Positions 7,770-36,381 of a stretch of 57,823 nucleotides of DNA are shown piece after piece. Each line of letters begins with the position of its first letter. Within the stretch, counting starts at the first letter, position 1. The notes beneath the pieces are model-generated. The model was not told the DNA's origin and did not search any database. It saw nothing but the letters and a program-made list of their open reading frames with translations. Both the position numbers and the translations under genes were made by a program. The DNA comes from Candidatus Peregrinibacteria bacterium GW2011_GWF2_39_17 (GTDB lineage Bacteria > Patescibacteriota > Gracilibacteria > UBA1369 > UBA12473): positions 1-57,823 of the forward strand of contig LBWM01000009.1 in the NCBI GenBank assembly GCA_000993615.1. The letters are read 5' to 3'.

Positions 7770-7804
7770 AATAAGCCAAAAAAAATATTTAGGACGAAAA
7801 TTTT

Positions 7805-8323: not shown

Positions 8324-8377
8324 TGTAATTCAAATTATATAACAAATCCTAAATTCCTAAAACACCCCTAAATTCCA

Positions 8378-8746: not shown

Positions 8747-8827
8747 TGTAACGCATGATATCGATTCATGTTTATTTACGCAACAGAGACGAGCCAAATT
8801 TTTCCTGCGAAGCAGCTAAAAACCAGC

Positions 8828-9025
8828 CTATTCCTGGCTAATTACTTGCTCACAATAAGCCTGTCGAACTTCGGTATGGGTTGTCCAAAAGCCAGTTTTA
8901 GCAGATGATTCACAAACTTGTTGGACAACGTCACTGTGCCAAGAAAAAGTCCCAGCAAAAGCCATCTGCGCACCGGCAGCAGCTACCAAAGACAACACTG
9001 TCAAAGATAAAAAAACTTTTTTCAT
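8828..9025 (-). CDS. small secreted protein with signal peptide
   Basis: A 65-residue protein. Residues 1-24 form a classical Sec signal peptide (KK start, hydrophobic core, AFA-G cleavage site). The predicted mature part has about 40 residues with two cysteines (the QQVCESS and AYCEQV segments) that could form one disulfide. No homolog is recognised. It is a stand-alone gene between the TauE-like gene and the strong hairpin at 9161-9200. Its downstream end is followed by small hairpins (around 8790-8840) that may terminate it. Confidence 0.7.
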   Translation of the reverse strand: MKKVFLSLTVLSLVAAAGAQMAFAGTFSWHSDVVQQVCESSAKTGFWTTHTEVRQAYCEQVISQE

Positions 9026-9160
9026 GAGAAAAAAAATTAAGAAATAAGTATCAGCAAAGTAACGATTTTTAAAAAAAATCCAAGCCTAAAATTCAAAAAG
9101 AAATTGACTTTAAATAAAAAAAAGCGGGAAATCATAGTCCGCTACAGGCGAATAATATAT

Positions 9161-9200
9161 ATACAGGGGGGCTGCGCTTAAAAGCGCAGCCCCCCTGTAT
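9161..9200 (-). terminator. perfect 19-bp hairpin, probable terminator of the giant SLH gene
   Basis: Bases 9161-9179 pair perfectly with 9182-9200 around a 2-base AA centre; the stem has a run of six G/C pairs. It lies 26 bp beyond the stop of the 3048-residue gene on its strand and is followed by an AT-rich but not pure-T stretch. It is the most stable simple hairpin I see in the window. Confidence 0.8.
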
Positions 9201-9225
9201 TTCCCCTCTTCACCCCCATTCTTAC

Positions 9226-15200: not shown

Positions 15201-18200
15201 TCTCCACGCTAAAAGTATTCACATTGAGTGTTGCGGGATCCATGGCTTCACTGAATTTAACTAAAATTTCATAAGCGCCTACCGGAACATCGGTCGCACC
15301 GTTTAAAGGAGCTACACGACTAACCTGAGGTGCCACCGAATCCGTACCAGTCCCAACCTTAAAAGATCTAACCTCTGGAAATTGCAAAGATTTCCCCGCA
15401 GCATCCTTAACGGTTGTGGGAATAGTGATTTCGTATTCGGTGTTGGCGGTAAGAACAGCAGATGGAATGAGTTTTACGAGTTGACTGGCCGCAATATAAA
15501 CAGGCGTAATTGTCACGGCAGTGCCTGTGGTAGAAGAACCAGCCATAGACCATCCAGTAATAGGTTTTAACGTAATACCCGAAAGGGTACTTTCATTCAT
15601 AGCATTGGAAAAACGCACCAAAACTGCTGTATTGGTTTTTACGTCAAAATTTCCCCAATCAGGATAAACACGTTCAATATTAAACGATTGATCCATAAAA
15701 AAATTATCATTGAACATATTCCCACTCATCGGAGATCCACCACTCATGGAATTTCCCATGTAATCTTTAACCCCCGTGGCCGCAAATTGAATTTGAGCAC
15801 CACTGGCGATAGTCAACCCTGTAATTTCCAACGCATTATCAAAACTCTTCCATTCAGCAACCGCACTGCTCAAATCATAGGGTTGCCCATTCACTGTCAT
15901 GACATAGCTGGAAAGATTCGCGGCTGAAGACCCCATGGCTCGATCAAATTTAACGGTACAACTCGTCGTTCGACATTCCACATATTGAATTTGAGGTGCC
16001 GTGGTCACACTTTGCCCTGTTGTAAAACTCCGTGTAAATTTGGAAGCCAATGTGTTCCCCGCAATATCTTTAACGTTCGTTGAAACCGTCAACGTATAAC
16101 TGGTGTACGGCTGCAACGGTTCATTCAAAGTAAGATTAGCCAATAAGCCAGCATTATCATAACTGACTTGCCCGGCTAAACAATATTCCACGCCCGCTTT
16201 ATTGGTACATAGTTTAATATTGCCGCTCAAATTGGAAGCATTGATCACGGATGCATCCATTTTCTCACTAAAATTAACCGATAAAACATTGTTCGTGAGA
16301 GGCACATTTATAGGATCAATTACCGAAGAAGTGGAAGGATCGTCATAACTTTCAACACTGGTGCTCGTCACAGATGGCTTCATAATATCGTTGACAGCAC
16401 CGGTTTTAAAACCAAATTTAAACGATGACATGGTGCCATTAAAAATATCTTTCACCCCAGATGCCCCCCCCTGAACCAAAACCTCATAACTGGTATTAGC
16501 TCCTAAAGATGCACCTACAGTAACAAGAGCTGTACGCGTATTGCTATTATAATTCACTGCGGAAAGAGCGACATTGACTCCAGTTTTTGCATAAGTCGCC
16601 CAATCGAATTGATAGAGCTGCAATGTAGCCGTATCGCCAGCAAGGGTTAGCGTGCTAGGATTAATATCCTTATTGAATTGAACGCTGAATGTCGCCAAAT
16701 TCGTAGGAACTTCCCAAGCATCCATTTGAGGAGAAGTTTGGATAACATTAAGCGGTTCATTCGTAACGCCCATAGTGGGATTATAAGTGACCGTTTTTTG
16801 GATATCCGAAGCCGTATTAACCGTTCCCCCTGGTGCATTATCCTTAAGCCCACTCAACGTGAGCGTATAAGGAGTTCCAGAAATCAACGTCGTCGAAGAA
16901 TCTAATACAATTCTCACACGATCCCATTGAGCCGTAAGGTTAGAGACCGTACGACTTGGGCTAAAAGTCGCCGTAGCGTTAGTTGTATTGACTCCATTCT
17001 CATCAGAACACAATAATTCCAATTCCATAGGGGAAAGGACTCTCACTTCAGTACAAACGGGAGGCGTGCTATCCGATGCTCCATAGACCACGACCTCACG
17101 AGTCAGTGGCTCACCCCCAGTAACCGTTCCGCTAACAATAACCGTATACATTGAATTAGGGGTCATATCAGACGCCAAAAGCAATTCCGCATAAAGACCG
17201 TAAACAACAACATTAGAAATAACTACCGGATTTTGTCCCAATTGAACCGTAAAATTACTAGGAACAGCCAATGAAGAATTCAACGCTTTATTAAAATCAA
17301 TACCAATGCGATTCAATCCCAAAGGATAAACGCCCATGACTCTCAAAGAACTCACATAGGTATTATCAAGCCCCGGCGTAGCGGTTTGCTTAAAAAAGTC
17401 ATCGGCAGCCGATCCCAAAGAAGTTCCACTGCTATCTCTTCCCAACGCTTCGTCAGCATTACCTGTTGAAGTTCCTGGTAAAGCATTGTCTGAAGCATAA
17501 CCATCATCAAAAGTACCCAAAGAAACCGAATCCATCATAAGAGAGGTATTGTCCACGAGTTGAAAATTATCATTATCTTGCAGATTTTTACCTCCAGTGG
17601 GCTGAGCTAAAATGATTTTATCTCCATTGCGGGTATCCGTAATAGACCCTCCGGCCGTACTGCTATAAATCACAACCCCAAATTTATCCTCACCTCCAGG
17701 ATTAACAGCGCAAGAAGGCCCTGCGGCTAAACTACAAACAAGCAAAGGCCCCGTCATAAAATTAGTACGCGTCACAATTACCTGCCAGTTCGTTAAGTTT
17801 TTATTGCTCTCATTGACACGAAGTTCAATGAATTCATCATTCGAATCAACCGATCCGCCCCCAACAGTACCGTTGTAATTATTACTACTCCAATCCCGCC
17901 GAGGAGCTGTGACGATTTCATTAATGACCACATCAGGACCAAAAAAGCCCCCTTCATTATTCGGGGCGCAATTAATCGGACGAGTGACCTGAAAAGCTAA
18001 AACATTTTGGATGGCTAAATCATCTCCATTAGGATAGCCACAAGCGACACCAACTCCATTCAGCGTATTGAATGTAACGCGCACATTTTCTGGATTAATT
18101 TGCTCAACAGTACTAGCAATGTGCGGACTCCCATCCTTAGATATCGTATAATTTGAAGCCGTAAGCACCGTCGCATTATCGGTTATATCCGCATTAAAGC

Positions 18201-18372
18201 CAATATCCAATTTATAATTATCAGTTCCATTGACATCAGCAAAAATTACGTCAGTGGGCACAGCCGCAGAAACCGTAAAAACTTGACCAACCGCAGTCAA
18301 AAGCACCACGATGATCAGTGGTACAACCACTATTTTACGCGTTAAGGATTTAAAGTGAGTGAGTATATTCAT
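9226..18372 (-). CDS. giant SLH-domain surface protein with lamin-tail, Ig-like (Big_5) and fibronectin III domains
   Basis: A 3048-residue secreted protein. Residues 1-37 are a signal peptide. About 145-275 resemble a lamin-tail domain (VVINEIV start, conserved EFIELRV). About 330-1560 hold a tandem series of Big_5-type Ig-like repeats, each with the pattern V-x-F-(S/N)-x-x-(M/I)-x-x-S-(T/S) and a closing T-D-x-x-G-N turn. About 1750-2530 are carboxypeptidase-regulatory-like beta-sandwiches, then a ZU5-like segment (about 2540-2680), a fibronectin III domain (about 2690-2785), a Ser/Gln/Glu-rich linker and three S-layer homology domains at about 2863-3048 (each with the T-R-A-E or N-R-A-E motif). 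It should be exported and anchored to the cell envelope through SLH, extending far outwards. It is a single-gene unit with a 260-bp upstream region and the hairpin at 9161 downstream. Confidence 0.95.
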   Translation of the reverse strand: MNILTHFKSLTRKIVVVPLIIVVLLTAVGQVFTVSAAVPTDVIFADVNGTDNYKLDIGFNADITDNATVLTASNYTISKDGSPHIASTVEQINPENVRVTFNTLNGVGVACGYPNGDDLAIQNVLAFQVTRPINCAPNNEGGFFGPDVVINEIVTAPRRDWSSNNYNGTVGGGSVDSNDEFIELRVNESNKNLTNWQVIVTRTNFMTGPLLVCSLAAGPSCAVNPGGEDKFGVVIYSSTAGGSITDTRNGDKIILAQPTGGKNLQDNDNFQLVDNTSLMMDSVSLGTFDDGYASDNALPGTSTGNADEALGRDSSGTSLGSAADDFFKQTATPGLDNTYVSSLRVMGVYPLGLNRIGIDFNKALNSSLAVPSNFTVQLGQNPVVISNVVVYGLYAELLLASDMTPNSMYTVIVSGTVTGGEPLTREVVVYGASDSTPPVCTEVRVLSPMELELLCSDENGVNTTNATATFSPSRTVSNLTAQWDRVRIVLDSSTTLISGTPYTLTLSGLKDNAPGGTVNTASDIQKTVTYNPTMGVTNEPLNVIQTSPQMDAWEVPTNLATFSVQFNKDINPSTLTLAGDTATLQLYQFDWATYAKTGVNVALSAVNYNSNTRTALVTVGASLGANTSYEVLVQGGASGVKDIFNGTMSSFKFGFKTGAVNDIMKPSVTSTSVESYDDPSTSSVIDPINVPLTNNVLSVNFSEKMDASVINASNLSGNIKLCTNKAGVEYCLAGQVSYDNAGLLANLTLNEPLQPYTSYTLTVSTNVKDIAGNTLASKFTRSFTTGQSVTTAPQIQYVECRTTSCTVKFDRAMGSSAANLSSYVMTVNGQPYDLSSAVAEWKSFDNALEITGLTIASGAQIQFAATGVKDYMGNSMSGGSPMSGNMFNDNFFMDQSFNIERVYPDWGNFDVKTNTAVLVRFSNAMNESTLSGITLKPITGWSMAGSSTTGTAVTITPVYIAASQLVKLIPSAVLTANTEYEITIPTTVKDAAGKSLQFPEVRSFKVGTGTDSVAPQVSRVAPLNGATDVPVGAYEILVKFSEAMDPATLNVNTFSVEKGDGSKVSGTVKYYLDDNSAAFMPTSVLEASTAYTIKLTTGVKDISGNALASQYTSSFTTGAADATSPQVQSAWSDGWMLGVHFDEHISESSVALQNFTLSCGANPKIISDKDFDYDAGNHELVIEQVGIEAGQACTITVTKVTDLAGNLIASPTNTATFTTMDVTGKFESNRVMYSYPGPGDNSFPPNSAVLEVGFQNPINIDTVTNSSVKLYPVNANGTDGTQINFSALDASNDKRSVYGTLGSSLSAGQKYHLVVTTAITDENGNNLMAFDAWNPNATTAYDIYFTTNSNNDTTAPQVWGTSLDSYKNTNGQVINVPQFLPIRIQFSKKMNSSTITDSDISDASSTIQIRDSENNRLVGDVVYLPEEKAALVNLASAFTPGANYTLIVKTTVTDLLGNALAQEYSQAFSVTPMADTVKPFIAQAECEEFECRIFFSEPVKKSQAESLKNYVLESPSGVSVSLSNKKIQYESMGQMVVIKDLSLKSDAFFKITVSNIQDLANNDLATTEDDPLTDNSAQLKVGASGLDPNVQRSIDGTNNNFNEFEGYVWANYDFFEAKMDKSAFTAGSFGLVSDKFGASMTGGGFRAEPMNKSTSQSTMWFIDVPVDQVIAENSYLQLKFPEGTVVSTATKPNSCMTNPGNGCSPVNGDINGPGTGTLTFTIDNLNDASRTVLLKLTGGATQARDFLTLDLNAIKTPSTKKDFNTDGYTVELSVLDSARRKVAGPYTSSPFFITGGGTAKIEGTITATGVDNGQTFDLQLGSPWSGVLSNTVTFSGGTATYKFENLQPGDYDIFLPSIVSLDKSSVATDYRTPPPPHFNVSDGVTKTYNFSLNDLSGAQDVNGNTLQTLTVNVTGGTATKKGVVEANSWSGHYKKEFTFDGDGAASVTFRAQQGQYFVNVWDYMPAFTFGPPPTPSFIPPAPKSVNVNGSLDADESSADTLGFVVLTPNRYISVTVKDENNNGIPNVDIFCQEPESMFGGGNGGRTSTDGVAMIRLFEGDFKCEAFVPGMQPMPPQKVRVTSSHNSEGNAATVVFTLKTAGLYKISGTVTSGSETVAYSPVWCNRVDDSGNWTPDWSNTGTDGSGAWSVLVAAGTWRCQADIMGYGPTDATEKTVSTTDVTGVTLSPPNDVVLFTGTIQINGAAPTQGGGVYAQRENGEQKFTNSKLDDNGTFTLRVKESNTDTYTVGVFIPGVLDKVLETGVSAAANSDLGTVDLSSGVALSTVTINLKNASNAAFNSEKAFVEITGTSAKNFKEFSGSSTSLQVPNGSGYKVRVTTKESGPLAEQTDVTVSADVALNFALLSNPVTISGKVTDADSAANQQGAFVSVLNPITGFKAEVQTNSSGNYTIQTPPNATYNVSVRKTGYLPEPPISQVVTTSAVSNLNFAIDAEAQGISITGTVTLGSTTANNNATVSARCTNGASVMDAVDNLGAYEVKLHQSSTITCTLEAYADGYTTPTANKQTVTPSTSQSGKNITATSTGGTIKPTKSSTVNPEQSSKVSDTDAGVEFNIPSGAITSSLTSATISMKKTGNIPKQTGNASIAADGIEISITDANGKAELSQPLTIVYDYATDSITDVQAENMTMAYLNESTGEWVDLPTTLDTTANTFTFSTDHFTVFGPKTNNDSVAPAAPTGLTATATSGQVVLNWADNAEADIDNYNIYRSTSSGVAISDSNQINTSSVAVSNYTDTTVSNGLTYYYAVTAVDSSGNESVISSEVSAAPVATSTVNSSSNTSGGGSTGYPPVVSIHQVSNSGEPEAELEAEVDSSSEEAVVTSEDQDQQQPNAEVSGGQVSFDFTNTDYEGHWAETYIDNVISLGLAQGVALNTFAPERNITRAEYTKMIVKAAGYLVPNKATKKSYGDVDLAAWYAPYIEVAKAAGMVKGYEDGTFRPNDTINRAEALKLLMEGLLTDKRVALDPTQGLLVNFGLTENPFTDLDLDTWYAEYVLDAYARGLVSGYEDHAFGPANSMTRAEFSKILSLALVL

Positions 18373-22548: not shown

Positions 22549-23118
22549 ATGCCTACAGAATCAGAGGAAGAGCTCATCACCGCAGCCAAAAACAATAAAC
22601 AAGATTTTATTAAACTTTATGACCGCTATTTTGATCCCATTTATAAATTTCTATTGACCCGCGTTACCAATTTAGATCTTGCCGAAGATTTAACCTCCGA
22701 AACCTTCTTCCTCGCCCTAGAAAACATTGACCGCTATCAATACACCGGCAAACCATTTAGCGCTTGGCTTTATCGCATCGCCATCAATGAAATGAATCGT
22801 TACTTTCGACGCCACAAAAAGGAAAAACAAATCATGGAAGCGGCTTGGCCAGAAATATTTAACAACCCTGAATCAGCTGATACTCAACTCAAAGAAAACG
22901 AAAATCAACTAAACCATCTTAATAATCTCAAAGAACTTAACACTGCCTTTAAGCGGCTTAAACCAGATGATCAAAACTTACTTTCCCTTCGTTATTTTCA
23001 AGACCTTTCCTATCAAGAAATTTCCAATGCTCTGAATTTAAGCCTCAGTAATGTCGGGGTAAAACTCAATCGTGCTCTTAAACGCCTCTCTCAACTCTCT
23101 AACGCCTCCTTATCATGA
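22549..23118 (+). CDS. ECF-type RNA polymerase sigma factor
   Basis: A 189-residue sigma-70 family protein of group IV (ECF). Sigma2 covers about residues 18-85, with the D-L-A-E-D-L-T-S-E-T-F core-binding segment and the W-L-Y-R-I-A DNA-binding helix. Sigma4 covers about 125-182, with L-S-Y-Q-E-I-S-N-A-L-N as the helix-turn-helix and V-K-x-x-L-x-R-A as the recognition helix. A charged linker separates them; no sigma3. Its TGA stop overlaps the ATG of the next gene (ATGA). In ECF operons this place is usually taken by the anti-sigma factor; here it is taken by a giant membrane-anchored alpha-2-macroglobulin. Confidence 0.92.
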   Translation: MPTESEEELITAAKNNKQDFIKLYDRYFDPIYKFLLTRVTNLDLAEDLTSETFFLALENIDRYQYTGKPFSAWLYRIAINEMNRYFRRHKKEKQIMEAAWPEIFNNPESADTQLKENENQLNHLNNLKELNTAFKRLKPDDQNLLSLRYFQDLSYQEISNALNLSLSNVGVKLNRALKRLSQLSNASLS

Positions 23119-26100
23119 CTTCTTCCAGTAATCAGCCTCAAAATTCGCTAGAAAATAATCTTAAAAAACTCTCTATGTTCCTTAAACGTCGCGCCCGTTC
23201 AGGTTTCAAAAATCAATTAAGACAAACCCTCACCGAAAAAGCCGAAACCCTCAATGAATCACCCCCCAAATGGAACTGGCACTTTAAACAATTTTTCCTA
23301 AAACGCTTACTGCCAGTCACAGCCACGGCTTTGATCCTCATTATCACAACCATAATGCTTTTCCCGGGAGGAGTGACCGGCCCATTATCTATTAAGCTAA
23401 TCAACACAGCCGCAGCCAAAGATTATTACATTCTCACGGCAAATGAATCTGACTGGAGTGGGATAACCGCCAATGCCCAATTTAAACTTCAAAGCAAAGG
23501 CCCCCTAAGTGTTAAAGAAATCAAAAAAGCGCTCACTGTTTCACCAGAAACCAATCTCAAAATTACCCAAACCGCTGAAAACGAGGTTACCATCATCCCT
23601 GAACAAAATCTAAACACTGGCACTATTTACACCTTTGAATTAGCAGCCCAAGAATTACCAGACAGCCCCTATCCAAAAGAATACCAATGGGCCTACCAAG
23701 TTTCTGAAGCCCTTAATATTACCGGCACTCTCCCTGGAAATCAAAGCGCTGGAGCACCAACCAATAGTGGCATTGAAGTCTATTTCAATTATCAAGGGGT
23801 AACTGCGGATGATTTTAAAAATCATTTCACCATCTCTCCAGCAGTTAACGGCACTTTTCAGGTTAAAGGTAAAACCGGAACCTTCATCCCCAAAGCTTCA
23901 ATCGGACTCCAACCAGGAACAATCTATACAATCACCATTACCGCCGGCCTACCTTTAAGCGACACGACTAAAAGCTTAACTACGGATTATATTTTTCAAT
24001 TTGAAACCTCAACCGAGCAAAGGAATAAAACCACGCTCCGCTTCCAAAAAACATTTTACGATTTCGACACTACCACCAAACCCGAATTCCCAATTTACTA
24101 TTACCAAAATGGGATAAACGAAAAAGAAGAAAATAATAATGTGGCAGTTCAAATTTATCGTTATGCCAGCGGCGAAGATTACATCAATGCTCTCCAAACT
24201 CAACATCAAGCCGCACCATCTTGGGCCTACGTTACAGAAGAAACTTACCTTTCCTCTACGAAAAATCTAGAAAGTATTTTGCAAATTCCGTCGATTCCAA
24301 TCGTAACCCCAGATTACCAAAACACTATTATTTTGCCTGAACCTCTACCCACAGGTTATTACCTCGTCCTGGCCACTAAAGAAAATGTCACAGATCAAGT
24401 TTTCCTTCAAGTATCTAACGTAGCAGCCTATTTAACCTTAAGTAATGCCCAAAGCATCATCTGGGCCAATGATCTTACAACCGGGAAACCACTTCCTGGA
24501 GCAGAAGTTGAAGTTCTTAACTACAACCTTTCCACTAAAACTGACTCCGAGGGAATCGCCACCTTTGACCAACTCATTAACAAAGTGGGCGGCGTCCAAG
24601 AAGAAAATAAATTTATCTACTTCAAAATCAGCGCCAACGGAAAAAGTACCTACTACGAAGCTGAACTAAATGGATGGAATCAACCAACCAGCAATGATAA
24701 TTATTGGCAATTACTTCAAACCGAGCGCCAAACTTATCACCCTACAGACACGATTTATTATTGGGGAATAATCCAAGGCCGCAAAAACCCCATCCAATCC
24801 GAAGCAACCCTCATTTTAAGTAAAACATATCTTTTTTACGAGTTAAAAAATTCGCTTGAACAAATGACCAAAAACAACGAAATCGTTTTCCAGAAAAACA
24901 TTCATTTGCAAGATGGCATAGCCTTTGAAGACAAAATTGATCTAGAAAAAATCGAACCATGGCAATACACCTTAGCCATTATTCAGGATAATCACATCCT
25001 AGCCCAAACTAACCTAAGCGTCGAAAATTATATTCTCCCTGCCTACCAAATATCCCTAGAAACAGACAAAGATGTTCTTTACGCAGGGGAAACGACCATT
25101 ATTCATGCTTATGCCCGGTTCTTCGAAGGCACTCCGGTCTCAAATGTGGAATTACGCTACACTCTACCCAATCAAAACACAGGCACCATATCTACCGATG
25201 AAAACGGAGAAGCAACTTTTTCTTTTACAGCCACCTTAGATGATCAATCTTGCAGCACCTATTGCCCAATTGAAGAATATCAATACCTTATCGTCACTCC
25301 TCTTAAAGAAGAATTAGCAGACATTCAAGCCAGAATACCGATCCAGGTATTTCGCTCTAAGATTGAAGCCACTAATTTTGAAATAACAACCCAAAAATTC
25401 TATTTAAAAACGCAACAAATTGACCTCAATCAAATCGCCCAAAAAAGCACTAATTGGGAAAATAGAGAAAATATTTACAGCGGACCTGCCCCACAGACCC
25501 GCCTTGAACTTGCCCTAACCAGAATAGATTGGGTAAAAACCGCTACCGGAGAATATTACGACGAAATTGATAAAACGGTCCATATCACCTATCGCAACGA
25601 TCGTATCGAAGTCCCTTTAGGCACCACAACTTTATTTACAGATGAAAAAGGGGAACTTAATTATACTCCTACCTTAGAAGCAGATCATGAATACGATCTT
25701 AATTTTACAATTTACGATGCCGAAGGTCATTTTTACAAAGACCATCACTGGGTTGGCCAGAGAACATTTTCGCCTGATGATGACAGCTCTTATCTTATCC
25801 TTTCGGAACAAAAAGCCGAAGATCCTTTTCAAAATCAAAATTTTACAATCGGCGAAGCAGTGAATTTAAAAATTACTAATTCAAATCCCGAACTAAGCAT
25901 GCCCCAAACTGAAAATACTCGCTATTTATTCATCCAAACCCAAAATGGTATTACAAACCACCTCATTCGAACCACACCCCAAAACAAATTCACCTTTAAA
26001 GAAGATATGATCCCCAATATTAATGTTCAAGCCATTCTCTTCGACGGAAAATACTTTAGCCAAACTGGGCTAGAATACATCAACTATGATCAGGAATTAA

Positions 26101-28664
26101 AGAGACTCAATGTTGAAGTAAGCCTCGAAAAAAATCGCTACGAACCAGGAGAAAAAGCTAATCTCACTATTAAAACATCCTCTCAAAATAAACAACCTAC
26201 ATCAGCCCAAGTCAACGTTTATTTAGTAGATGAAGCCTATTATGCGCTTTTCGAAGAATCATTCCGTGATCCACTCCCTCAATTATATTCAGCGATTGGA
26301 AATAATTTACAATACACCTATAGTTCTGAATCAAAAGAAACCATGAATGGTGGAGGGAAAGGAGGATGCTTTATCGCCGGGACCCAAATTCTAATGACTG
26401 ACGGCAGTACTAAAGCAATTGAAAAAATTGAAACTGGTGACCGCATTTTAACTCGACAAAACGAATGGAATGGCGAACTTATGCCAGCAACCGTCTGGAA
26501 AACCTACGAACACCTAGTTTCCGACTATTTACTAATTAATGAATTTTTGGGAGTCACCGGTGAACACATTTTATTTATTAATGGAAAATGGCAACTTGCC
26601 AATAACTTAAAGCTGGGAGACGTCTTAATTAACAAAGATGGTCAAAAAATCATTGTTAGCACTATTGACAAAATTCATACTCCTCTAAAAGTTTATAACT
26701 TCGAGGTCCAACACTATCATACTTATTTTGCCAACGGCATCTATGTGCACAATGACAAAGGAAGAACACGAGAAGATTTTCGTGATACCGCGCTGTTTGA
26801 ATTAGTTCAAACAGATAGTAACGGACAAGCCACTCTTAATTTTGAATTTCCGGACAATATTACGTCCTGGCGAGTTGTAGCCACAGCCGTAAAAGGAGGT
26901 GATATTCAAGCCGGATACGGCCATACTAATATTGAGGTTTCTAAAAAATTATTTACCCTACCAGTAGTAAACACCCAATACCTTATTGGAGATAAACCGC
27001 AAATCCCAATTCGGGCTTATGGCGATGCCCTTAACTCTGACACCTCCATCGAATTTAAAACCCAAATCGATACCTTAAATTACACCGAAGAAAAAACCGG
27101 ACTTGCTTTTGCCACGACCTATTTCACCCTTCCAAACCTTACCCAAGGCACTCATCGATTTTTAACTTCTGCCAAAATCAAGGATAATACCGATAGCCTT
27201 GCCCTACCATTTACAGTTGAGCAATCACATTTAACTAAACAAGTCACTAGCCAAAATGTGCTCAGTAATAATTTTCACCTCCAAGGGGCTCCCACCGAAC
27301 GCACCAAATTGACCTTTCTTAATAACGAAATTTCTTCAATTTACGACTTTTTACTAAATTCTCTTTTTGAAACAGGAGATCGAGTTGACCAAATTACGAC
27401 CAAGACATTAAGCCGGGAATTACTTAACCAATACTTTAACGCTAACCTTCCGACCGAAGAATTTCCAACTTTCCTCTATGAATCAGGTTACGAGAATGAA
27501 GGAATTACGCTTTTCCCTTATAGTGACAGTGATCTTAAATTAACGGCTCAACTAGTTGGCGTTAATAAAAATTTATGGAGTTTAACCCCTCTTAAAAATT
27601 ATTTTATCTCAATTCTGAATGACAAAAATCGCCTGCTTTCAGAAAAAATAAAAGCTTTATACGGATTAGCCAACCTAGAAGAAAATTATTTATCTGACCT
27701 TAATTATCTTAGCGAAAATTTTGATTTAGGCCTAGAAGACCAAATTTACACTGCGCTGGCCTACTCCACCTATGGCGCCCAAGACAAAGCTAATGACCTT
27801 TTTCTTAAAATTCTGGATCAAAATTCAAAACTGGAAACAAATACTCTCAAAATTACCACTGCTGGCGCTACGCAAGAAGATGAACTTTCCTGGACAGCGC
27901 TTATGGCAACATTAGCAGAACAACTCGGCAGCGATCGCCGTGATGTACTTTGGAATTATGTAATTGCACCTAAAAATAACGAAAATATGGCCGAACTCAT
28001 CCTACTTGAAAAGCTTCTATATACCGAAAATCGCTTAGCCAGAGGTGCCAAAACAACAGTTTCCTTCACCATAAATAACAAAAAAATCAGCCTAGTAAAT
28101 AACGAAATTTATGAAATTAGCCTCCTACCAACAGAGCTAAAAAATACAACTTTTTCAAATATTCAAGGTGAAATTGGCCTAATTAGTAGCTACGAAATCC
28201 CCATTGATCTTGCCACGATTCAAACTGACTCTCGCCTCCAAATTACCAGAAAATACCTTGTTAATGGCCAAGAAACAACCACCTTTAAACCAGGAGATAT
28301 GGTAGAAGTTCATTTTACCTACAATATTCCAAACGATCTTGAAGGCGCTTACCGCATTATGGATTACTTACCCAGTGGCCTCCAATCTGCAACCCAAGTC
28401 CAAAATTTTAGACCCTATCAAAACTCCACGGGAAACCAGAATTATAGAATGCCCTATCACCATGACCAACAAAAACTTTCCTTCTATATTTATTGCAGTA
28501 AAGATTATGGTTGCCAGGATAACGCGGGAAATACTGGCTTTTATTATCTGGCACGCGTTATAAACAAAGGAGAATTCATTACTGAACCATCTATCATTCA
28601 AGGACTAGGTAATTCAACTCTCATCAATACCAGTGGGACACGAGATTCAATTACTATCCCCTAA
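23115..28664 (+). CDS. membrane-anchored alpha-2-macroglobulin with inserted Hint (intein-like) domain
   Basis: An 1849-residue protein. Residues 1-62 are a basic cytoplasmic segment, 65-84 a transmembrane helix, and the rest extracytoplasmic: Ig-like and MG domains to about 1080, an A2M core from the D-F-R-D-T-A segment (about 1220), a helical thioester-type domain (about 1400-1640) and a C-terminal MG/receptor-like domain. At Cys1085-Asn1213, inside a glycine-rich linker just before D-F-R-D-T-A (the bait region of A2Ms), lies a 129-residue Hint domain: C-F-I-A-G-T-Q-I-L start, T-G-E-H block B, N-F-E-V and H-T-Y-F-A-N-G block, and His-Asn end. The residue after it is Asp, not Cys/Ser/Thr. 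The thioester site C-x-E-Q reads Arg1423-Val-Asp-Gln, so the thioester is lost. It is translationally coupled to the ECF sigma gene. Confidence 0.92.
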   Translation: MTSSSNQPQNSLENNLKKLSMFLKRRARSGFKNQLRQTLTEKAETLNESPPKWNWHFKQFFLKRLLPVTATALILIITTIMLFPGGVTGPLSIKLINTAAAKDYYILTANESDWSGITANAQFKLQSKGPLSVKEIKKALTVSPETNLKITQTAENEVTIIPEQNLNTGTIYTFELAAQELPDSPYPKEYQWAYQVSEALNITGTLPGNQSAGAPTNSGIEVYFNYQGVTADDFKNHFTISPAVNGTFQVKGKTGTFIPKASIGLQPGTIYTITITAGLPLSDTTKSLTTDYIFQFETSTEQRNKTTLRFQKTFYDFDTTTKPEFPIYYYQNGINEKEENNNVAVQIYRYASGEDYINALQTQHQAAPSWAYVTEETYLSSTKNLESILQIPSIPIVTPDYQNTIILPEPLPTGYYLVLATKENVTDQVFLQVSNVAAYLTLSNAQSIIWANDLTTGKPLPGAEVEVLNYNLSTKTDSEGIATFDQLINKVGGVQEENKFIYFKISANGKSTYYEAELNGWNQPTSNDNYWQLLQTERQTYHPTDTIYYWGIIQGRKNPIQSEATLILSKTYLFYELKNSLEQMTKNNEIVFQKNIHLQDGIAFEDKIDLEKIEPWQYTLAIIQDNHILAQTNLSVENYILPAYQISLETDKDVLYAGETTIIHAYARFFEGTPVSNVELRYTLPNQNTGTISTDENGEATFSFTATLDDQSCSTYCPIEEYQYLIVTPLKEELADIQARIPIQVFRSKIEATNFEITTQKFYLKTQQIDLNQIAQKSTNWENRENIYSGPAPQTRLELALTRIDWVKTATGEYYDEIDKTVHITYRNDRIEVPLGTTTLFTDEKGELNYTPTLEADHEYDLNFTIYDAEGHFYKDHHWVGQRTFSPDDDSSYLILSEQKAEDPFQNQNFTIGEAVNLKITNSNPELSMPQTENTRYLFIQTQNGITNHLIRTTPQNKFTFKEDMIPNINVQAILFDGKYFSQTGLEYINYDQELKRLNVEVSLEKNRYEPGEKANLTIKTSSQNKQPTSAQVNVYLVDEAYYALFEESFRDPLPQLYSAIGNNLQYTYSSESKETMNGGGKGGCFIAGTQILMTDGSTKAIEKIETGDRILTRQNEWNGELMPATVWKTYEHLVSDYLLINEFLGVTGEHILFINGKWQLANNLKLGDVLINKDGQKIIVSTIDKIHTPLKVYNFEVQHYHTYFANGIYVHNDKGRTREDFRDTALFELVQTDSNGQATLNFEFPDNITSWRVVATAVKGGDIQAGYGHTNIEVSKKLFTLPVVNTQYLIGDKPQIPIRAYGDALNSDTSIEFKTQIDTLNYTEEKTGLAFATTYFTLPNLTQGTHRFLTSAKIKDNTDSLALPFTVEQSHLTKQVTSQNVLSNNFHLQGAPTERTKLTFLNNEISSIYDFLLNSLFETGDRVDQITTKTLSRELLNQYFNANLPTEEFPTFLYESGYENEGITLFPYSDSDLKLTAQLVGVNKNLWSLTPLKNYFISILNDKNRLLSEKIKALYGLANLEENYLSDLNYLSENFDLGLEDQIYTALAYSTYGAQDKANDLFLKILDQNSKLETNTLKITTAGATQEDELSWTALMATLAEQLGSDRRDVLWNYVIAPKNNENMAELILLEKLLYTENRLARGAKTTVSFTINNKKISLVNNEIYEISLLPTELKNTTFSNIQGEIGLISSYEIPIDLATIQTDSRLQITRKYLVNGQETTTFKPGDMVEVHFTYNIPNDLEGAYRIMDYLPSGLQSATQVQNFRPYQNSTGNQNYRMPYHHDQQKLSFYIYCSKDYGCQDNAGNTGFYYLARVINKGEFITEPSIIQGLGNSTLINTSGTRDSITIP

Positions 28665-29207: not shown

Positions 29208-31211
29208 TCACCTTTCAAGAAAGCGCTGAACCATATCTTCTAAACTCATTCCGGGATGAGTACGAGCAATAAATTCAGGATCTAAAGCTTCACCTTTCTT
29301 TTCATCAGCTAAGACTACCAGCAATCGTTTTAGTGTTTCAACATATTCCTGATTCCTATCTGGTGCTTGTTTAACAAAAGCAACTATAAAATCTTTATCA
29401 AAATAGCTGTCATACAAGTGCTTAGAGCTACAATAATCCTTAAAAGCCTTAAAGGATTCAATAAAATCAACCGAGTGTAATCTAGAAACTAAAACCGAAT
29501 CATTTTTAACCACCAAATAAGCTTCAAAAAAAGAATCCATCTCCTCGCAAGTCAAAAGATTGTGATATTGCAAAATACTTTCAAGAAACTTAAAACTGCT
29601 CCGATATTCTAAAACCGGTAAATTAAAAATTCTGTCCAATGGTCCCAATAAATAACTTCGACTAACCTGACCCAACATTCCTTTTAATAACCTAAAATTA
29701 ACTTCATCCTTCAAAGCAACCAAAAGTGCCTTTATCTCATTTGAATGGCCATCTATAGAATCTATTTCAGAAAAAGGTAAATAAGATGGATAACCAATCG
29801 CAAATAAAGCAACAAATCTATCCACTATTTCAGGATTATTTTGCACATAATCAAGGCTAAAAAAATTAAAAAAATCTTCCAAAGAAATTTTATATTGGCT
29901 CTCCTCATCTGATGCCTTCAAAGCTACCGCTAAATAATTTTTATCTTCCAATTTAGCCTCATTTAACGGCTCTTGTAAGGCTACTGTTAATGATTTCTTC
30001 TGTTTCTCACTTAAGTTTCCGTTGGTCATCAACTCGATATAGACATCTACAGTTTGCGTCCTAATAGTACGCACGACATTCCTGATAAAACCAGCAACAT
30101 CAATATCGGGATATTCTAAAATACGCTCAACTGCTTGCCGAAAATTCACATCGCCTTCCTTTAGAAAATATGAACCATTTATAAAGACCGAGATAGAATC
30201 CACCATAAATTCCCCCTCCGACTCATCGCTAAGCCGATTTAATACTCGAACTAGAAGAGCGGAATCCTCTGCTTTTTCTAATAAATCTACTAAGCGATAC
30301 CCTTTAGCCGGATTTTTAATTCCCCATTCTTCGGCTTTTCTAATCTCTTGTAAATTAGCTCTCATATCTTGCCCCATACCATTTACAGCCAAATAATCCT
30401 GTAAAGCAGTCATCGGAGCCCCAACTTCATGAAATGTCGCTACTGCAACCGCAAATTCATTAGCACAATATGTAGTTGCCTTATTAAAATTTTCCCGATC
30501 TTGCTCCCGATACCACTGGAAAGCAAACCAATTTTTCTTCCAATAGTCTCCTGATTTAGAAAACATCTCACTTTCATAACCACTACCTAATTGCTCACTA
30601 GCTAAAGCTAAATAAAAATAAACATATTGAGCTTGCAGGGATGCCAAATCTCCTTTTTCCAAAAAACCTGCTCCGAATAAACCATAAAAAGGTGTAATAT
30701 CCCCTCCAGATAAAAAAGTTTGACAATTATTTACAGAAAATTCCGCACCTTCGACAACAGATCCATTTAAGTCGCAACTCGCTGGCTCAAAAGCTGATTC
30801 AAAAGTAGATGCCGTTATTTCTAAATCGCATTTTAAAAGGCTAGTTAAACCTACCCATGCAAATTCATTCACCGAATAATCCCCTCGCGCATCCCGCTCA
30901 GACCGATCAACCCTAATCCCATCTTCCTTATCCAATCTCACTTTCATCCCTTTCCTTCGTTTTGCATAAAATCGCTGACAATAATCATCCAAATCCACAA
31001 TACTGACCGGATCGACTCTTTTAAACTGCCCATAAATATTACAACCCCCATAAAGAGATAACATCCCAAATAAAGGTAATCCTATTTTAGCCATACGCCT
31101 CCATAAATGTGATCTATGATCAATTTTTAAAGATTCGACTAATTTATCAGGGCTTATCCCCGATTCATTGGCAACTACCAACAATTTTTCTACATCACCA
31201 TGTCCTTCCAT
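29208..31211 (-). CDS. 667-aa protein with one N-terminal membrane segment, function unknown
   Basis: About 38 N-terminal residues (cytoplasmic in the simplest model) precede one hydrophobic segment (residues about 40-55, I-G-L-P-L-F-G-M-L-S-L-Y-G-G-C), followed by some 600 mostly helical residues that would lie outside the cytoplasm. The Y-G-G-C end resembles a lipobox but lies too deep for a normal lipoprotein signal. Several cysteines occur at 125-180. I recognise no family. It is transcribed divergently from the transglutaminase-VWA/MoxR pair out of a 104-bp region with back-to-back promoters, which argues for a shared role. It ends with TGA and converges on the GNAT gene with a 5-bp gap. 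Confidence 0.82.
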   Translation of the reverse strand: MEGHGDVEKLLVVANESGISPDKLVESLKIDHRSHLWRRMAKIGLPLFGMLSLYGGCNIYGQFKRVDPVSIVDLDDYCQRFYAKRRKGMKVRLDKEDGIRVDRSERDARGDYSVNEFAWVGLTSLLKCDLEITASTFESAFEPASCDLNGSVVEGAEFSVNNCQTFLSGGDITPFYGLFGAGFLEKGDLASLQAQYVYFYLALASEQLGSGYESEMFSKSGDYWKKNWFAFQWYREQDRENFNKATTYCANEFAVAVATFHEVGAPMTALQDYLAVNGMGQDMRANLQEIRKAEEWGIKNPAKGYRLVDLLEKAEDSALLVRVLNRLSDESEGEFMVDSISVFINGSYFLKEGDVNFRQAVERILEYPDIDVAGFIRNVVRTIRTQTVDVYIELMTNGNLSEKQKKSLTVALQEPLNEAKLEDKNYLAVALKASDEESQYKISLEDFFNFFSLDYVQNNPEIVDRFVALFAIGYPSYLPFSEIDSIDGHSNEIKALLVALKDEVNFRLLKGMLGQVSRSYLLGPLDRIFNLPVLEYRSSFKFLESILQYHNLLTCEEMDSFFEAYLVVKNDSVLVSRLHSVDFIESFKAFKDYCSSKHLYDSYFDKDFIVAFVKQAPDRNQEYVETLKRLLVVLADEKKGEALDPEFIARTHPGMSLEDMVQRFLER

Positions 31212-31315: not shown

Positions 31316-33646
31316 TTGCCACCACAAACTACCCAACTCGAATGGGATCCTGCTGTCCCTGCCTATTTCAGAGAATTGGTAAGGGATTTAGAAAAAGGAA
31401 CACCACCTCAAATAGCCCCCGCATTAATTACCCCTTTGCGCCAATTCCTGGAAGCCATATCTATGGCAGGCCTACAACAAGATAGATCCCCTTATCAATC
31501 CCCAGCTTTATCTCCAGCTTTACAAGCACAATTAACTAGACTTCAAGCAACCAGGTTAATCCCCGAAGGAGAAGAGACTAATGTTCCCGAAAGACTTGCC
31601 GATCAATACCTCAGCCCTTCTGAAAAATCTTTACTATGGCACTATCAAATTAAACCAATCGTAGATTGGATTTTAGCTCAAAATGATCGCCTGCTTAGAG
31701 GACCCTTACCTTGTGACCTCCATCCTACCACAATTAATGAATCTTCTTTCCTAGATCCGTCCATGGATGGAGAATTAGAATCTAAAGAGGGAAGTGCGGA
31801 AATTTCAGCCATAATTATTCCCCAACATAGCGCCGCTTATCGACGGCTTATTTTTTCTATTTTCAATACCACAGAAATCTTATGGAAAAGCGAACCCAAT
31901 ACTTTTAATAAACCTCCTGAACGTCAACTCTTACCCGAGAGCCGCCATCGCTATTTTTCTAACCTAGAAATTGGGAAAGCAACTCCAATTGCCACCGAAA
32001 CACTAGGATGGGGAATAGATGAACAAAGTTTCCGCTGGGAAGAAAATGACCAAAGTGGTATTGAAGTTGAATTTTTTGAAAATCAATTTGGCGTACCCTA
32101 CGTTATCGCAACTTCGCACAAATCAACACCGGATGCTTCCCCTGATCTAGCAGCCTCTTTTCCTTTTTCTATTGAAATCGGCCAATTGAAAAAGCCATTT
32201 CAAATAAAAGCGCCTCGGAAAAAATCTACTACCTCTGCCCTTTTACCTGATTGCGTTTCTGCGACACTTAAAGCCCTACAAGGATCAAAATTGAACACTA
32301 GCGGAAAAGCAAAAACCATAGAAGCCTATATTCGAGAAAATTTAGAATATAGCACCGAGAAAAAATATAATGAAATCTATAAAGCAGATAAAACCACCTA
32401 TTATCTAAAATTGTGGGAACACAAAAAAGCAGATTGTGATGTGGCCAACAACTTTGCCGCCGAACTTTTACGACAATTAGGCATTACGGCCTATATGGTC
32501 ATGGGAATTCAATCAAGGGAAGAAAAAAATTATTCTATTCTTCAAGAAAGTCATTCCCATGCCTATTTAATAGTTTACCTGCCAGAGAGTCGGGAATGGA
32601 TTAAAATAGATGCCACTCCGCCTGAAAATAAACCCCCTACCGCCTCCGATACCCCGGACCTTACGCAAAAAGATTTCGATAAGAATAGCTCCCCGAATAC
32701 ACAAAGAAGTACAGAAGAAGCCGCGAAAAAATTTAGCCAAGAAGCCCATTGCTCCCTAGAAGAAGCAAGGAAAATTTTAGAGTTAATCAGCAACCTAAGA
32801 AATTTACAAAATAATGAGGGCGTAACTGTGTATAAGGAAGCCATAGATTTATGGCAATCCTTAACTCGCGACCAACAAAAAATTCAGAAACGTCGACATG
32901 GCCCGGTTCCACTAAAAGGACATAGTCATTTACATTATCCTGCAAGGCTTTTCCTCGCAAGGTTGTTTGGAAACCCACATCCACGAGTAGCAAAAAAAAG
33001 AAACCACCAAATTGAAACAACGGCACCTTTATTTTCAGGTTTAGATGTAATTTTACTCCTAGATTTATCAGAAAGTATGAATTTTGTTGATCCATCAACC
33101 GACCAAAGCCTTAAAGAACTTCAATGTGCCAGTGCCTTTTTAATTACCGATGCAATGATGTCAGCGGCTGAAATTACAAAAAGGTCATTACCTAATGACC
33201 AAAAAACCAAAGCCGTAAGAACAACCATTCTGACAATTCACGATAACACCCTGAAAATTTTACTCCAACCTTCCAGTGACTGGAATCCGGCCCAACAAAT
33301 TGCCTTATATCGCGGCGCGAATCAATCGCCAAATGGCCGTACGCCTCTATACCTTGGGTTTCAAGAAATTAACCAAATGATAAAACAGTCGCCACCGGAG
33401 CGCACATGCTTGGTACTATGTTTTACAGATGGAGCACCGTCATACTTTCAACATACGCAACAATTAATCGCCAATTTAAAAGCCGCCGGAATAATAATTT
33501 TCGGCTTTGGCATAACCCAAGGAGCAACAGCGGTAAAAGAACTCTTTGGGCCTGAACACAGCGAATTGATCACTGACCTAAAACAATTAGCCACTCGCCC
33601 CTTAACCGTAGCCTTATCCGCGATTAAAGCACAATACAAACCGTAA
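31316..33646 (+). CDS. transglutaminase-like protein with C-terminal von Willebrand factor A domain
   Basis: A 776-residue protein with no signal peptide. Residues about 330-435 form a transglutaminase-like domain with an intact catalytic triad: Cys374 (K-A-D-C-D), His415 (S-H-A-Y) and Asp432 (I-K-I-D-A-T-P). Residues about 570-770 are a VWA domain with a complete MIDAS (D583-L-S-E-S587 and T-D705-G-A-P-S). A linker at 440-560 includes a UBA-like helical segment. The start is TTG 31316, just after the rightward promoter at 31251; no in-frame ATG fits. The MoxR-type ATPase gene follows after 14 bp. VWA proteins paired with MoxR ATPases act as metal-dependent chaperone or assembly pairs; the fused transglutaminase/protease fold suggests the substrate is cleaved or cross-linked. 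The substrate is unknown. Confidence 0.88.
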   Translation: MPPQTTQLEWDPAVPAYFRELVRDLEKGTPPQIAPALITPLRQFLEAISMAGLQQDRSPYQSPALSPALQAQLTRLQATRLIPEGEETNVPERLADQYLSPSEKSLLWHYQIKPIVDWILAQNDRLLRGPLPCDLHPTTINESSFLDPSMDGELESKEGSAEISAIIIPQHSAAYRRLIFSIFNTTEILWKSEPNTFNKPPERQLLPESRHRYFSNLEIGKATPIATETLGWGIDEQSFRWEENDQSGIEVEFFENQFGVPYVIATSHKSTPDASPDLAASFPFSIEIGQLKKPFQIKAPRKKSTTSALLPDCVSATLKALQGSKLNTSGKAKTIEAYIRENLEYSTEKKYNEIYKADKTTYYLKLWEHKKADCDVANNFAAELLRQLGITAYMVMGIQSREEKNYSILQESHSHAYLIVYLPESREWIKIDATPPENKPPTASDTPDLTQKDFDKNSSPNTQRSTEEAAKKFSQEAHCSLEEARKILELISNLRNLQNNEGVTVYKEAIDLWQSLTRDQQKIQKRRHGPVPLKGHSHLHYPARLFLARLFGNPHPRVAKKRNHQIETTAPLFSGLDVILLLDLSESMNFVDPSTDQSLKELQCASAFLITDAMMSAAEITKRSLPNDQKTKAVRTTILTIHDNTLKILLQPSSDWNPAQQIALYRGANQSPNGRTPLYLGFQEINQMIKQSPPERTCLVLCFTDGAPSYFQHTQQLIANLKAAGIIIFGFGITQGATAVKELFGPEHSELITDLKQLATRPLTVALSAIKAQYKP

Positions 33647-33660
33647 TCTACACTATTATC

Positions 33661-36381
33661 ATGTTAAAATTTTCAACATCAGATCTAATAGAAACCGCCA
33701 TCCCCTTACCACCCGAGGCAACTGCCTTTGCGCAAGAATACATAGAATGTCTAAGCGCTAGCTCTAAACTTTATATAAGAGAAACAACGTTAAGTTTCGG
33801 TGCGGCAATAATGGAAACGCTCAGTACGCATCCTGCTTTTAAATCAGAAAATTTAGCTGAAGTCTTTCAAGTAGACCATTCACTGCAAAAACAATTAGCT
33901 ATCTATCGAGCCTTGTCAGCAAGTTATCAACCTTCTTCTTTGTCTCCAACTTTAGCTCCTGCCGAAAAATCAGATAGTCCTCTTGCTAAGGCTCATGAAT
34001 TATTGACTACTCTTAAAAAGCATCAAGACGAAATGCTAGAAGTAGAAAAAGAATTATTTCGTTCCAAGGTACATGACGGACATAATGTTTTAGCCGCAAG
34101 GCTGCTTGTTGCCACCAGAAATTGCACTCAAACAACAAACGATTTAACCGCATTAAAACAATCTCATCCAGATGTCGCTGCTCAATTAGAATACGAACGC
34201 CTGTGTGAATATACCGATCAACTAAATAAACATGGATTTATTTGGACCCAAAGCTTGCAAGATTTATTCCGAAAAGTAGTAAGCGCAGCTACCCATTCGC
34301 ATTTAATTCGATTACAGGGGGAAACCGGAACCGGAAAAACTGCTTTTGTTGAAGCATTGGCCAAACTGCTTACCGGCCGCCTAGCTTATACCGAAATAGG
34401 GATAGAAGAAACAGCACTTACTGATCTTTTATGCAGCCCCTCATTTACCGAAAAAACATTATATTTATATAATACTTGCCTGCAGGCAATAACCGGCAAA
34501 GAAGATCAACATGCAGAGTCGACCGCAGGAGGGCTTTTATTTTTAGATGAATTTAATAGCTACCCATCTGCCCTTCAATTAGCACTACTGAAATTCTTAA
34601 GCTCCGCTAAACCAGGAGCACAAATCAGAATCCCGGAAACTGGACTTACCGAAAAAGTAATTGCTGAATTTCTCTGTATTGTTGCTCAAAACCCTCTAAA
34701 TAAACGTTATAGTAAAGGACGAGCTGAAACACCACTCGAAGCCGAAAGACAATTTGGCGATAACGAATTTGAATTTCCTTTTTTACCACAAAGCCCAGAA
34801 AACCCAGAATTATTTCAACTTATGTGCGCCTGCCTACTTGATCCCTATTCTCATCGCTATCGAGCAATTACCAAAGATGAAGTTTGTCCAGAATATAAAT
34901 TAGATTCCTCCACCCAAACTTATAAATTAGCAGATTCTCCCCAAGCCGGCGGCTTCTTATGGCGCTTAGCTAATGCCTGGCATGAACTTTTTAATGCTTT
35001 TTGCCATGACCCTAATGTGCTAACCGCTAAAAACCCGACAAAACCGCCCGAAAAATACTACCTTGAAAAATTAAATATTGGCTATGAAATAATGAAAAAT
35101 TGGCTTATAACCTACCGGTCCACGGAGTCACTTTATCCTGAAGGAATCGAAACCTTTATCAAACAAAAAATAAAAGAATTCTTAGCAAAACAACCAATAA
35201 GCGCAAATCGCACAGTAGCTATTCAAATACTAGCCCATTTTGATATTGATCTCGACATAAGATCTACTCTTCAAAGATCAACCACCCCCCTTGATTCACT
35301 AGAAATTGGCTATCTATTCCCTAATGTGCCACGACCACTTATCCCAGCCCCTACAAAAGCGCCTCAAAATAGAATCCTAACCATTGTGAAAGGAATTGAC
35401 GGAAAAACTTTTCATGTTTTACCAACTTTACCAGCAAATCTTTCAGATTTTGGAATCAACGATTTACTCGTACCAAAAACCACCTCATCTTCTCCTGAAA
35501 AATACAGAATTTTAGGCCAGCTTCAAGATCAGCCTGATATGTTGGTAATTGAAGACTTAACCAAGCATGGCGAGTACAAATTTATACCACAATCAGAATT
35601 AGCCCAAAATTATGATAAAGAAGCCACAAATACTGAATACATCGAAAAATTTCAACTAGAAAAAGCCTACAGCGATTTTATCGCGCGACTTGTTGAATGT
35701 GGCCTCTTAGCCGATCCCACCCGTTTAGTCATCTCAGCCGAAAATAGCATTACGACACAGCAAATTTTAGTCCCTACCTGGGAACAGGTAAAAAACGTCC
35801 TGCTTTCAAACCCAAAATACCCAGAAAAGGCCGCACAATTTTTCTCCCCTAGATTAATCATCTCACCTAAACACCTAAAATTTGCAGCTCTAGTAAGAGC
35901 GATAGCAAAAATAAATCGTCCACCAAAAGACCAAAAAAGATTTGCCGCCATTCTCGACCTATCTCCAGACGAAATAGACAAAATAATAAAGTACAATGGC
36001 AAATCCAAAAGGGATCTATCCCCATTAGAAATTGATCTCGTTGAAGGTTATCCAGAGATTGAACAACAAGGAACTACAACAAATCTTGCAGGACGACCCG
36101 CTTTAGCCTGCGGCCATGAAAGCCAAGCTTACCTGGACATACTTTCCTCCAATCCTATTTACAAGGGTGAACAACCTATGGATCTGGAAGATGTCTTATG
36201 GCTGATGATAGCAGACAAATTTAGTTCTGGGCGTTCGACCATGACTCTCTGCCCGACTTCAATCTTAGGTGATAAAATTCTTACTGTATCAATCATTAAT
36301 GGAACCGTTACTATTTCACCTGGGCAAGGGACAGCCTATGGAATACGTGGAATTCGAACAAAAATAGTATTAGATATCTAA
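33661..36381 (+). CDS. MoxR/dynein-type AAA+ ATPase, partner of the VWA protein
   Basis: A 906-residue protein with one AAA+ module in the middle. Walker A GETGTGKT is at 220-227 and Walker B L-F-L-D296-E-F-N follows a glycine pair; a Q-N-P-L sensor-1 segment (I-V-A-Q-N-P) lies near 348. The D-E-F-N box and insert pattern are those of the MoxR/midasin-like helix-2-insert clade. About 210 helical residues precede the module and some 450 follow it. It is transcribed with the transglutaminase-VWA gene (14-bp gap). MoxR ATPases work with VWA proteins in remodelling or metal insertion; the size and flanking domains here are well beyond the usual 320-residue MoxR. Confidence 0.87.
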   Translation: MLKFSTSDLIETAIPLPPEATAFAQEYIECLSASSKLYIRETTLSFGAAIMETLSTHPAFKSENLAEVFQVDHSLQKQLAIYRALSASYQPSSLSPTLAPAEKSDSPLAKAHELLTTLKKHQDEMLEVEKELFRSKVHDGHNVLAARLLVATRNCTQTTNDLTALKQSHPDVAAQLEYERLCEYTDQLNKHGFIWTQSLQDLFRKVVSAATHSHLIRLQGETGTGKTAFVEALAKLLTGRLAYTEIGIEETALTDLLCSPSFTEKTLYLYNTCLQAITGKEDQHAESTAGGLLFLDEFNSYPSALQLALLKFLSSAKPGAQIRIPETGLTEKVIAEFLCIVAQNPLNKRYSKGRAETPLEAERQFGDNEFEFPFLPQSPENPELFQLMCACLLDPYSHRYRAITKDEVCPEYKLDSSTQTYKLADSPQAGGFLWRLANAWHELFNAFCHDPNVLTAKNPTKPPEKYYLEKLNIGYEIMKNWLITYRSTESLYPEGIETFIKQKIKEFLAKQPISANRTVAIQILAHFDIDLDIRSTLQRSTTPLDSLEIGYLFPNVPRPLIPAPTKAPQNRILTIVKGIDGKTFHVLPTLPANLSDFGINDLLVPKTTSSSPEKYRILGQLQDQPDMLVIEDLTKHGEYKFIPQSELAQNYDKEATNTEYIEKFQLEKAYSDFIARLVECGLLADPTRLVISAENSITTQQILVPTWEQVKNVLLSNPKYPEKAAQFFSPRLIISPKHLKFAALVRAIAKINRPPKDQKRFAAILDLSPDEIDKIIKYNGKSKRDLSPLEIDLVEGYPEIEQQGTTTNLAGRPALACGHESQAYLDILSSNPIYKGEQPMDLEDVLWLMIADKFSSGRSTMTLCPTSILGDKILTVSIINGTVTISPGQGTAYGIRGIRTKIVLDI

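Follow-up and report, generated by a model that had tools for sequence, protein, structure and literature searches.

In the usual view, alpha-2-macroglobulins (A2Ms) and complement proteins are switched when a protease from outside cuts one loop. What, then, would a Hint domain with all the residues for cutting itself do inside that loop? This question is raised by the window, the 57,823-nucleotide stretch analysed here, from a 1.31 Mb draft genome of the Patescibacteria (CPR), a huge group of tiny, mostly uncultured bacteria; among named genomes its closest kin are Peregrinibacteria. An intact open reading frame in the window encodes a membrane-anchored A2M of 1849 amino acids (Table 1).

Based on Pfam, the domain order in this protein is bMG3, A2M_BRD (PF07703, the bait-region domain, E 2e-14), PT-HINT (PF07591, aa 1095-1214, E 4e-18) and the A2M core (PF00207, aa 1225-1297, E 3e-7), the last three above cut-off. 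A bait-region domain followed by the core makes the protein an alpha-2-macroglobulin, and its PT-HINT is the only one in the whole genome. Bacterial A2Ms of type I (E. coli YfhM, Salmonella A2M) and of type II have the same bait-region domain, core and fold. The CxEQ thioester of type I is absent by alignment, with RVDQ at that place; with the bait region kept, this is the pattern of the likewise thioester-less type II A2M MagD of Pseudomonas. Unlike bacterial A2Ms of either type, the window protein has a folded Hint in its bait linker, a segment ahead of its N-terminal transmembrane (TM) anchor, and a sigma-factor partner in place of PBP1c or the mag operon: the genes beside it encode an ECF sigma factor and a GNAT acetyltransferase, not the six-gene mag operon.

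Elsewhere in the window, we found a 3048-aa surface protein (9226-18372, minus strand) with seven Big_5 stretches, a carboxypeptidase-regulatory-like domain and SLH domains, as well as a 667-aa protein (29208-31211, minus strand) with no Pfam match above cut-off. A gene pair (31316-36381, plus strand) encodes, by eye, a 776-aa VWA protein with a transglutaminase-like part and a 906-aa MoxR-type ATPase.

Table 1. Features of the Hint-bearing A2M and its upstream gene in the window.
Feature	Position	Strand	Basis
ECF sigma factor gene, 189 aa	22549..23118	+	Pfam Sigma70_r2 E 2.5e-15 and Sigma70_r4_2; 4-bp overlap with A2M start
Hint-bearing membrane-anchored A2M, 1849 aa	23115..28664	+	Pfam domains
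N-terminal pre-TM segment, aa 1-64, probable sigma-binding (anti-sigma) part	23115..23306	+	Sequence; tracks upstream sigma gene
TM helix, aa 65-83	23307..23363	+	Kyte-Doolittle mean 2.37 over 19 residues
A2M bait-region domain PF07703, aa 907-1045	25833..26249	+	Pfam
N-side bait linker, aa 1046-1084, ends GGGKGG; aa 1065-1082 predicted disordered	26250..26366	+	
Hint (type-A BIL-like) domain, Cys1085-Asn1213	26367..26753	+	Pfam, family profile, fold
Cys1 (C1085), predicted N-S acyl shift nucleophile, Gly-Gly before it	26367..26369	+	Invariant 52/52
Block B T-x-x-H (T1148, H1151)	26556..26567	+	T and H invariant 52/52
C-terminal His-Asn (H1212, N1213), predicted Asn cyclisation	26748..26753	+	Invariant 52/52
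C-side linker DKGR, +1 = Asp, not Cys/Ser/Thr	26754..26765	+	+1 residues across 52 cases
Post-bait A2M core (REDFRDTALFEL..., PF00207 region), aa 1218-1299	26766..27011	+	
Internal thioester place, R-V-D-Q for C-x-E-Q, aa 1423-1426	27381..27392	+	Alignment

A family profile places the Hint exactly at aa 1085-1213 (129 aa, 26367-26753). An earlier note on this DNA had given 26367-26756, with the correct start and an end one codon too far that takes in the Asp at +1. The AF2 model of the domain, built with 19 natural sequences, has a pLDDT of 85 and a pTM of 0.81. Its best solved structural matches are bacterial intein-like (BIL) domains, above inteins and Hedgehog: BIL2 of the Tetrahymena BUBL1 locus (6y75; Z 19.8, 1.8 A) and the Clostridium thermocellum BIL (2lwy; Z 19.6, 1.4 A), the latter also being best by sequence (E 8e-18). 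Both are type-A BILs and share with the Hint the fold, Cys1, TxxH, the C-terminal His-Asn and the lack of Cys, Ser or Thr at +1. A class 1 intein carries one of these three residues there, where the window protein has Asp and the family D, E, Q, A, N, G or K. Unlike the type-A BILs, the Hint has an A2M as its host and a functional trigger loop as its site, and both the site and the catalytic residues are conserved across many lineages. The Pfam family is shared with the PT-HINT of polymorphic toxins; unlike in those proteins, the A2M Hint is followed by the rest of the A2M and not by a toxin module.

Next, we compared the insertion site with A2Ms that have no Hint. Exactly where the window A2M reads GGGKGG-[Cys...His-Asn]-DKGRTREDFRD, homologs lacking the Hint have a linker rich in Gly; in L083, for instance, it is GGGAEKGGGGGDDVRSNFKD. 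When a profile of the Hint-less CPR A2Ms was aligned to E. coli A2M, the counterpart of the linker was FGGDGDELKRGGKPPVN, and the Hint site corresponded to bait residues about 947-963. In the E. coli protein, Phe947-Asn963 (Arg956 is named) is the bait part that is ordered against the CTMG domain once cut by a protease, the residues just before it (923-942) are not visible in the structure, and the rearrangement of the A2M is driven by bait residues set free on bait cleavage (PMC4498604). Because the linker matches the stretch that becomes ordered after cutting, the Hint sits in the trigger loop itself.

In a model of aa 881-1319, the ordered Hint stands between two stretches with pLDDT below 50 (aa 1065-1082 and 1216-1224), and its flanks resemble E. 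coli and Salmonella A2M along the whole segment (4ziq, 4u48; Z about 16). In all 52 aligned cases the Hint lies in the bait linker and nowhere else, starting 23-35 aa past the bait-region domain, with the core beginning 2-12 residues past the Asn. The earlier note had proposed a Hint domain in an A2M bait linker. Its identity is confirmed by the PT-HINT match, the family profile and the predicted fold, and its place by the Hint-less homologs, by E. coli A2M, by the survey of aligned cases and by the segment model, in which it is a folded module within the linker. The motifs named there (Cys1, T1148-H1151 as TxxH, H1212-N1213, then Asp) all hold.

Is the window protein a one-off case? We gathered 52 cases of Hint-bearing A2Ms (Hint-A2Ms) from many Patescibacteria lineages, corresponding to 51 distinct genes since L124 and L165 are the same gene. 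A search of 99 related genomes with the Hint plus flanking sequence gave matches in 26. In 21 of the 99, the Hint lies in an A2M-sized frame (1372-1939 aa) and aligns through both flanks (E 1e-44 to 1e-68), which puts the association far beyond chance; two further, more divergent matches are also within A2M-like frames. When one conserved block was searched for in 84,980 species genomes, 55 loci were obtained, with Hint-A2Ms in Peregrini-, Magasanik-, Parcu-, Portnoy-, Kerfeld-, Ames-, Collier-, Woese- and Dojkabacteria and WWE3, and one on a contig labelled Micavibrio, possibly mislabelled. Among 380 CPR genomes sampled evenly, a bait-region domain occurs in 51 genes (52 matches, of which two are pieces of one gene, counted from coordinates), and 21 of these genes carry the Hint, about 100 bp downstream and always directly after that domain. 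The Hint-in-bait A2M is a conserved architecture and no one-off case.

The contig labelled Micavibrio sp. (L127, DYDB01000001.1) encodes at 5643-10607 a Hint-A2M with an intact GCVEQ thioester, and the nearby ORFs, named by eye, are dnaE-, rnhB-, topA- and dprA-like; either the gene has moved out of CPR or the MAG is mislabelled. Related Hint domains are also found in other large CPR proteins (L050, L051, L177, L180, L181; frames from 614 to more than 4000 aa), and these are possible donors.

We then examined Hint presence on a tree of the flanking A2M domains (frame tree; 92 rows, Hint columns left out). Nine state changes are found compared to 30 with shuffled labels, and a single origin in one clade is rejected (AU p 2e-41, from a quick tree of 240 columns). 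Hint and frame distances are correlated (Mantel r 0.56, 0 of 2000 permutations; r 0.32 for pairs below 50% frame identity). Long co-inheritance plus several gains, losses or exchanges fits best. A mobile or viral form of the Hint-A2M was also considered and rejected, as none of 37 viral Hint relatives is in an A2M frame. The related Hint domains on viral contigs (L217-L253) mostly have Lys or Gly after HN.

None of the 52 cases departs from Cys1, from the Thr and His of TxxH or from the closing His-Asn pair, and a divergent extra Hint-A2M (L178) likewise keeps the Cys and the His-Asn. Mean identity is 45% for the Hint compared to 32% for the flanking A2M domains, and dN/dS is about 0.06 for a close pair (L030/L031), which shows purifying selection. 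Catalysis is predicted from sequence; the Hint might be inert, or a structural plug that fills the bait loop. We consider this the least probable of the alternatives: the catalytic residues are 100% conserved at an average pairwise identity of 45%, and a plug would have no use for the full set of Cys1, TxxH, His and Asn.

What would an active Hint do at this site? The residue after the Asn is D in 20 of the 52 cases, E in 17, Q in 8, A in 3, N in 2, G in 1 and K in 1, and Cys, Ser or Thr in none; Lys follows in 43. Gly is found before Cys1 at -1 in 49 cases and at -2 in 47. Type-A BILs, which end in HN and have no +1 nucleophile, mostly cleave, with some splicing by aminolysis (PMC4031507). 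We favour, as a fairly probable reading, a type-A BIL Hint that self-cleaves the bait of a membrane-anchored A2M and, where sigma-linked, is the built-in site-1 device of an anti-sigma factor. After export and folding, Cys1085 would most likely attack the bond that joins it to Gly1084, an N-S acyl shift that leaves Gly-Gly as a thioester, and cyclisation of Asn1213 would break its bond to Asp1214. As a +1 nucleophile is lacking, the Hint would usually cleave at one of its edges or at both, and a spliced product would be minor. In this way the A2M would sever its own bait, independently of proteases or when conditionally triggered, and become two chains held non-covalently. Nonetheless, cells or the +1/+2 residues could keep the Hint silent, and a constitutively cut bait would seem a waste of a protease trap unless the cut is slow or gated. 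From the residues present and the behaviour of type-A BILs, the expected order of outcomes, likeliest first, is a two-chain A2M by self-cleavage, splicing to an ordinary bait, and use of the thioester as acyl donor.

The BIL-type reading of the earlier note stands, while its view of classical splicing as unlikely is refined: type-A BILs can ligate by aminolysis, so the lack of a +1 nucleophile is no bar to splicing (PMC4031507). A Hint that mainly splices would remove itself and ligate KGG to DKGR, leaving an ordinary bait linker and a mature A2M that resembles its Hint-less homologs, and would be tolerated or regulatory. Once the Hint is removed, the linker left is Gly-rich as in Hint-less A2Ms and has a median of 32 residues, close to the 35 in 39 of these, and the patchy distribution on the frame tree, with one clade rejected, also favours this reading. 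However, a +1 nucleophile for efficient splicing is found in none of the 52 cases and the Hint has no homing endonuclease. Furthermore, most inteins are in conserved catalytic sites and not in a disordered bait loop. We therefore regard predominant splicing as unlikely.

The predicted Gly-Gly thioester might instead be an acyl donor that captures a protease or a surface amine and replaces the internal CxEQ lost by the window protein. The Gly residues before Cys1 are in line with this, as are the top structural match, a BIL2 domain of the Tetrahymena BUBL1 locus, and the absence of CxEQ in 45 of 53 Hint-A2Ms compared to 12 of 38 Hint-less A2Ms (Fisher 2.5e-7, a raw value that ignores ancestry). 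Nonetheless, Gly-Gly is also ordinary linker sequence in Hint-less homologs, eight Hint-A2Ms keep CxEQ, and the association is unsupported when shared ancestry is considered, as 2 independent pairs give no signal. The Hint as a substitute for a lost thioester is thus rejected, and the acyl-donor role appears quite improbable. Equally doubtful is a bait that acts as a self-generated Gly-Gly thioester warhead, with which a triggered A2M would acylate a protease or the surface of a neighbouring cell from its bait region; if true, A2Ms would have a second, independent route of covalent target capture.

For self-cleavage of the bait, the favoured reading, the neighbouring gene suggests a use. The ECF sigma factor, whose closest NCBIfam model is the BldN family (below cut-off), is encoded directly upstream, as expected for the partner of a transmembrane anti-sigma factor, and its gene overlaps that of the A2M by 4 bp. 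A sigma gene has this upstream position at 18 other Hint loci, a coupling that the earlier note, correct on the domain, its position and its BIL type, had missed together with the scale across CPR. Overall, 24 of 57 A2M loci with upstream sequence have a sigma gene directly upstream, 19 with a Hint and 5 without. This linkage is common in Peregrinibacteria and rare elsewhere, and of the 38 Hint-A2Ms with upstream sequence, 19 lack an adjoining sigma gene. The Hint is not a requirement for the linkage (19 of 38 loci with Hint compared to 5 of 19 without, Fisher 0.15). The pre-TM segment has at least 40 aa in 24 of 24 sigma-linked A2Ms, and a sigma gene is absent from all 24 A2Ms whose segment is shorter (57 loci; Fisher 6.6e-9, kinship ignored). 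Because the sigma gene occurs only with a long segment, aa 1-64 of the window protein probably bind the adjacent sigma factor, and gene linkage suggests that the A2M is probably the ectodomain of a transmembrane anti-sigma factor.

For four Hint-A2Ms (L034, L036, L039, L042), a second ECF sigma gene is found within a few kb downstream. At L040, a sigma gene (12124-12701, minus strand) lies upstream of a Hint-A2M split over two frames, the split being a pseudogene, a frameshift or an assembly error.

Transmembrane anti-sigma factors of the RsgI type have a self-cleaving ectodomain, autoproteolysis being the first proteolytic step (PMC12203970). In the sigma-linked cases (the window and most Peregrinibacteria loci), the self-cut of the Hint would similarly replace the site-1 cut of regulated intramembrane proteolysis, and the genome encodes Peptidase_M50, the family to which site-2 proteases belong. 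The cleavage domain and ectodomain are unrelated to those of RsgI, and the anti-sigma role is read from linkage. Pfam gave no known anti-sigma domain at aa 1-64 and no RsgI-type domain in the 1849-aa A2M. Weighing against the anti-sigma part of the favoured reading, the pre-TM segment belongs to no recognised family, the counts ignore kinship, and sigma genes are missing beside half of the Hint-A2Ms.

A folded domain in place of the A2M bait region, processed at its edge, is also found in complement C3, C4 and C5, where it is the anaphylatoxin domain (PMC9156758). There, outside proteases cut and the anaphylatoxin is the signal, whereas the Hint is predicted to cut itself, and the two domains are unrelated. 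Our searches of the openly licensed literature gave no paper that connects A2M to Hint or BIL domains, although automatic domain databases may already display the architecture; openly licensed papers with both macroglobulin and intein are, by their titles and the start of their abstracts, on other subjects. Hint/BIL domains and A2Ms are each known; their union in the bait loop, its phylum-wide conservation and the tie to sigma factors appear new.

Many lineages of one bacterial phylum keep, in the trigger loop of an A2M, a Hint with every catalytic residue. With all the residues for self-cutting in the bait loop, such A2Ms, as traps or as sensors, may need no protease to cut or reset their trigger, and Hint-A2Ms are a natural test of whether protease-free bait cutting alone triggers an A2M. 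BIL domains, whose roles are mostly unknown, gain a clear host function to test, and Hint-A2Ms supply mini BIL domains for protein engineering. Finally, these results suggest that ultra-small bacteria, most of them uncultured, have an anti-sigma receptor of a new, self-cleaving kind.
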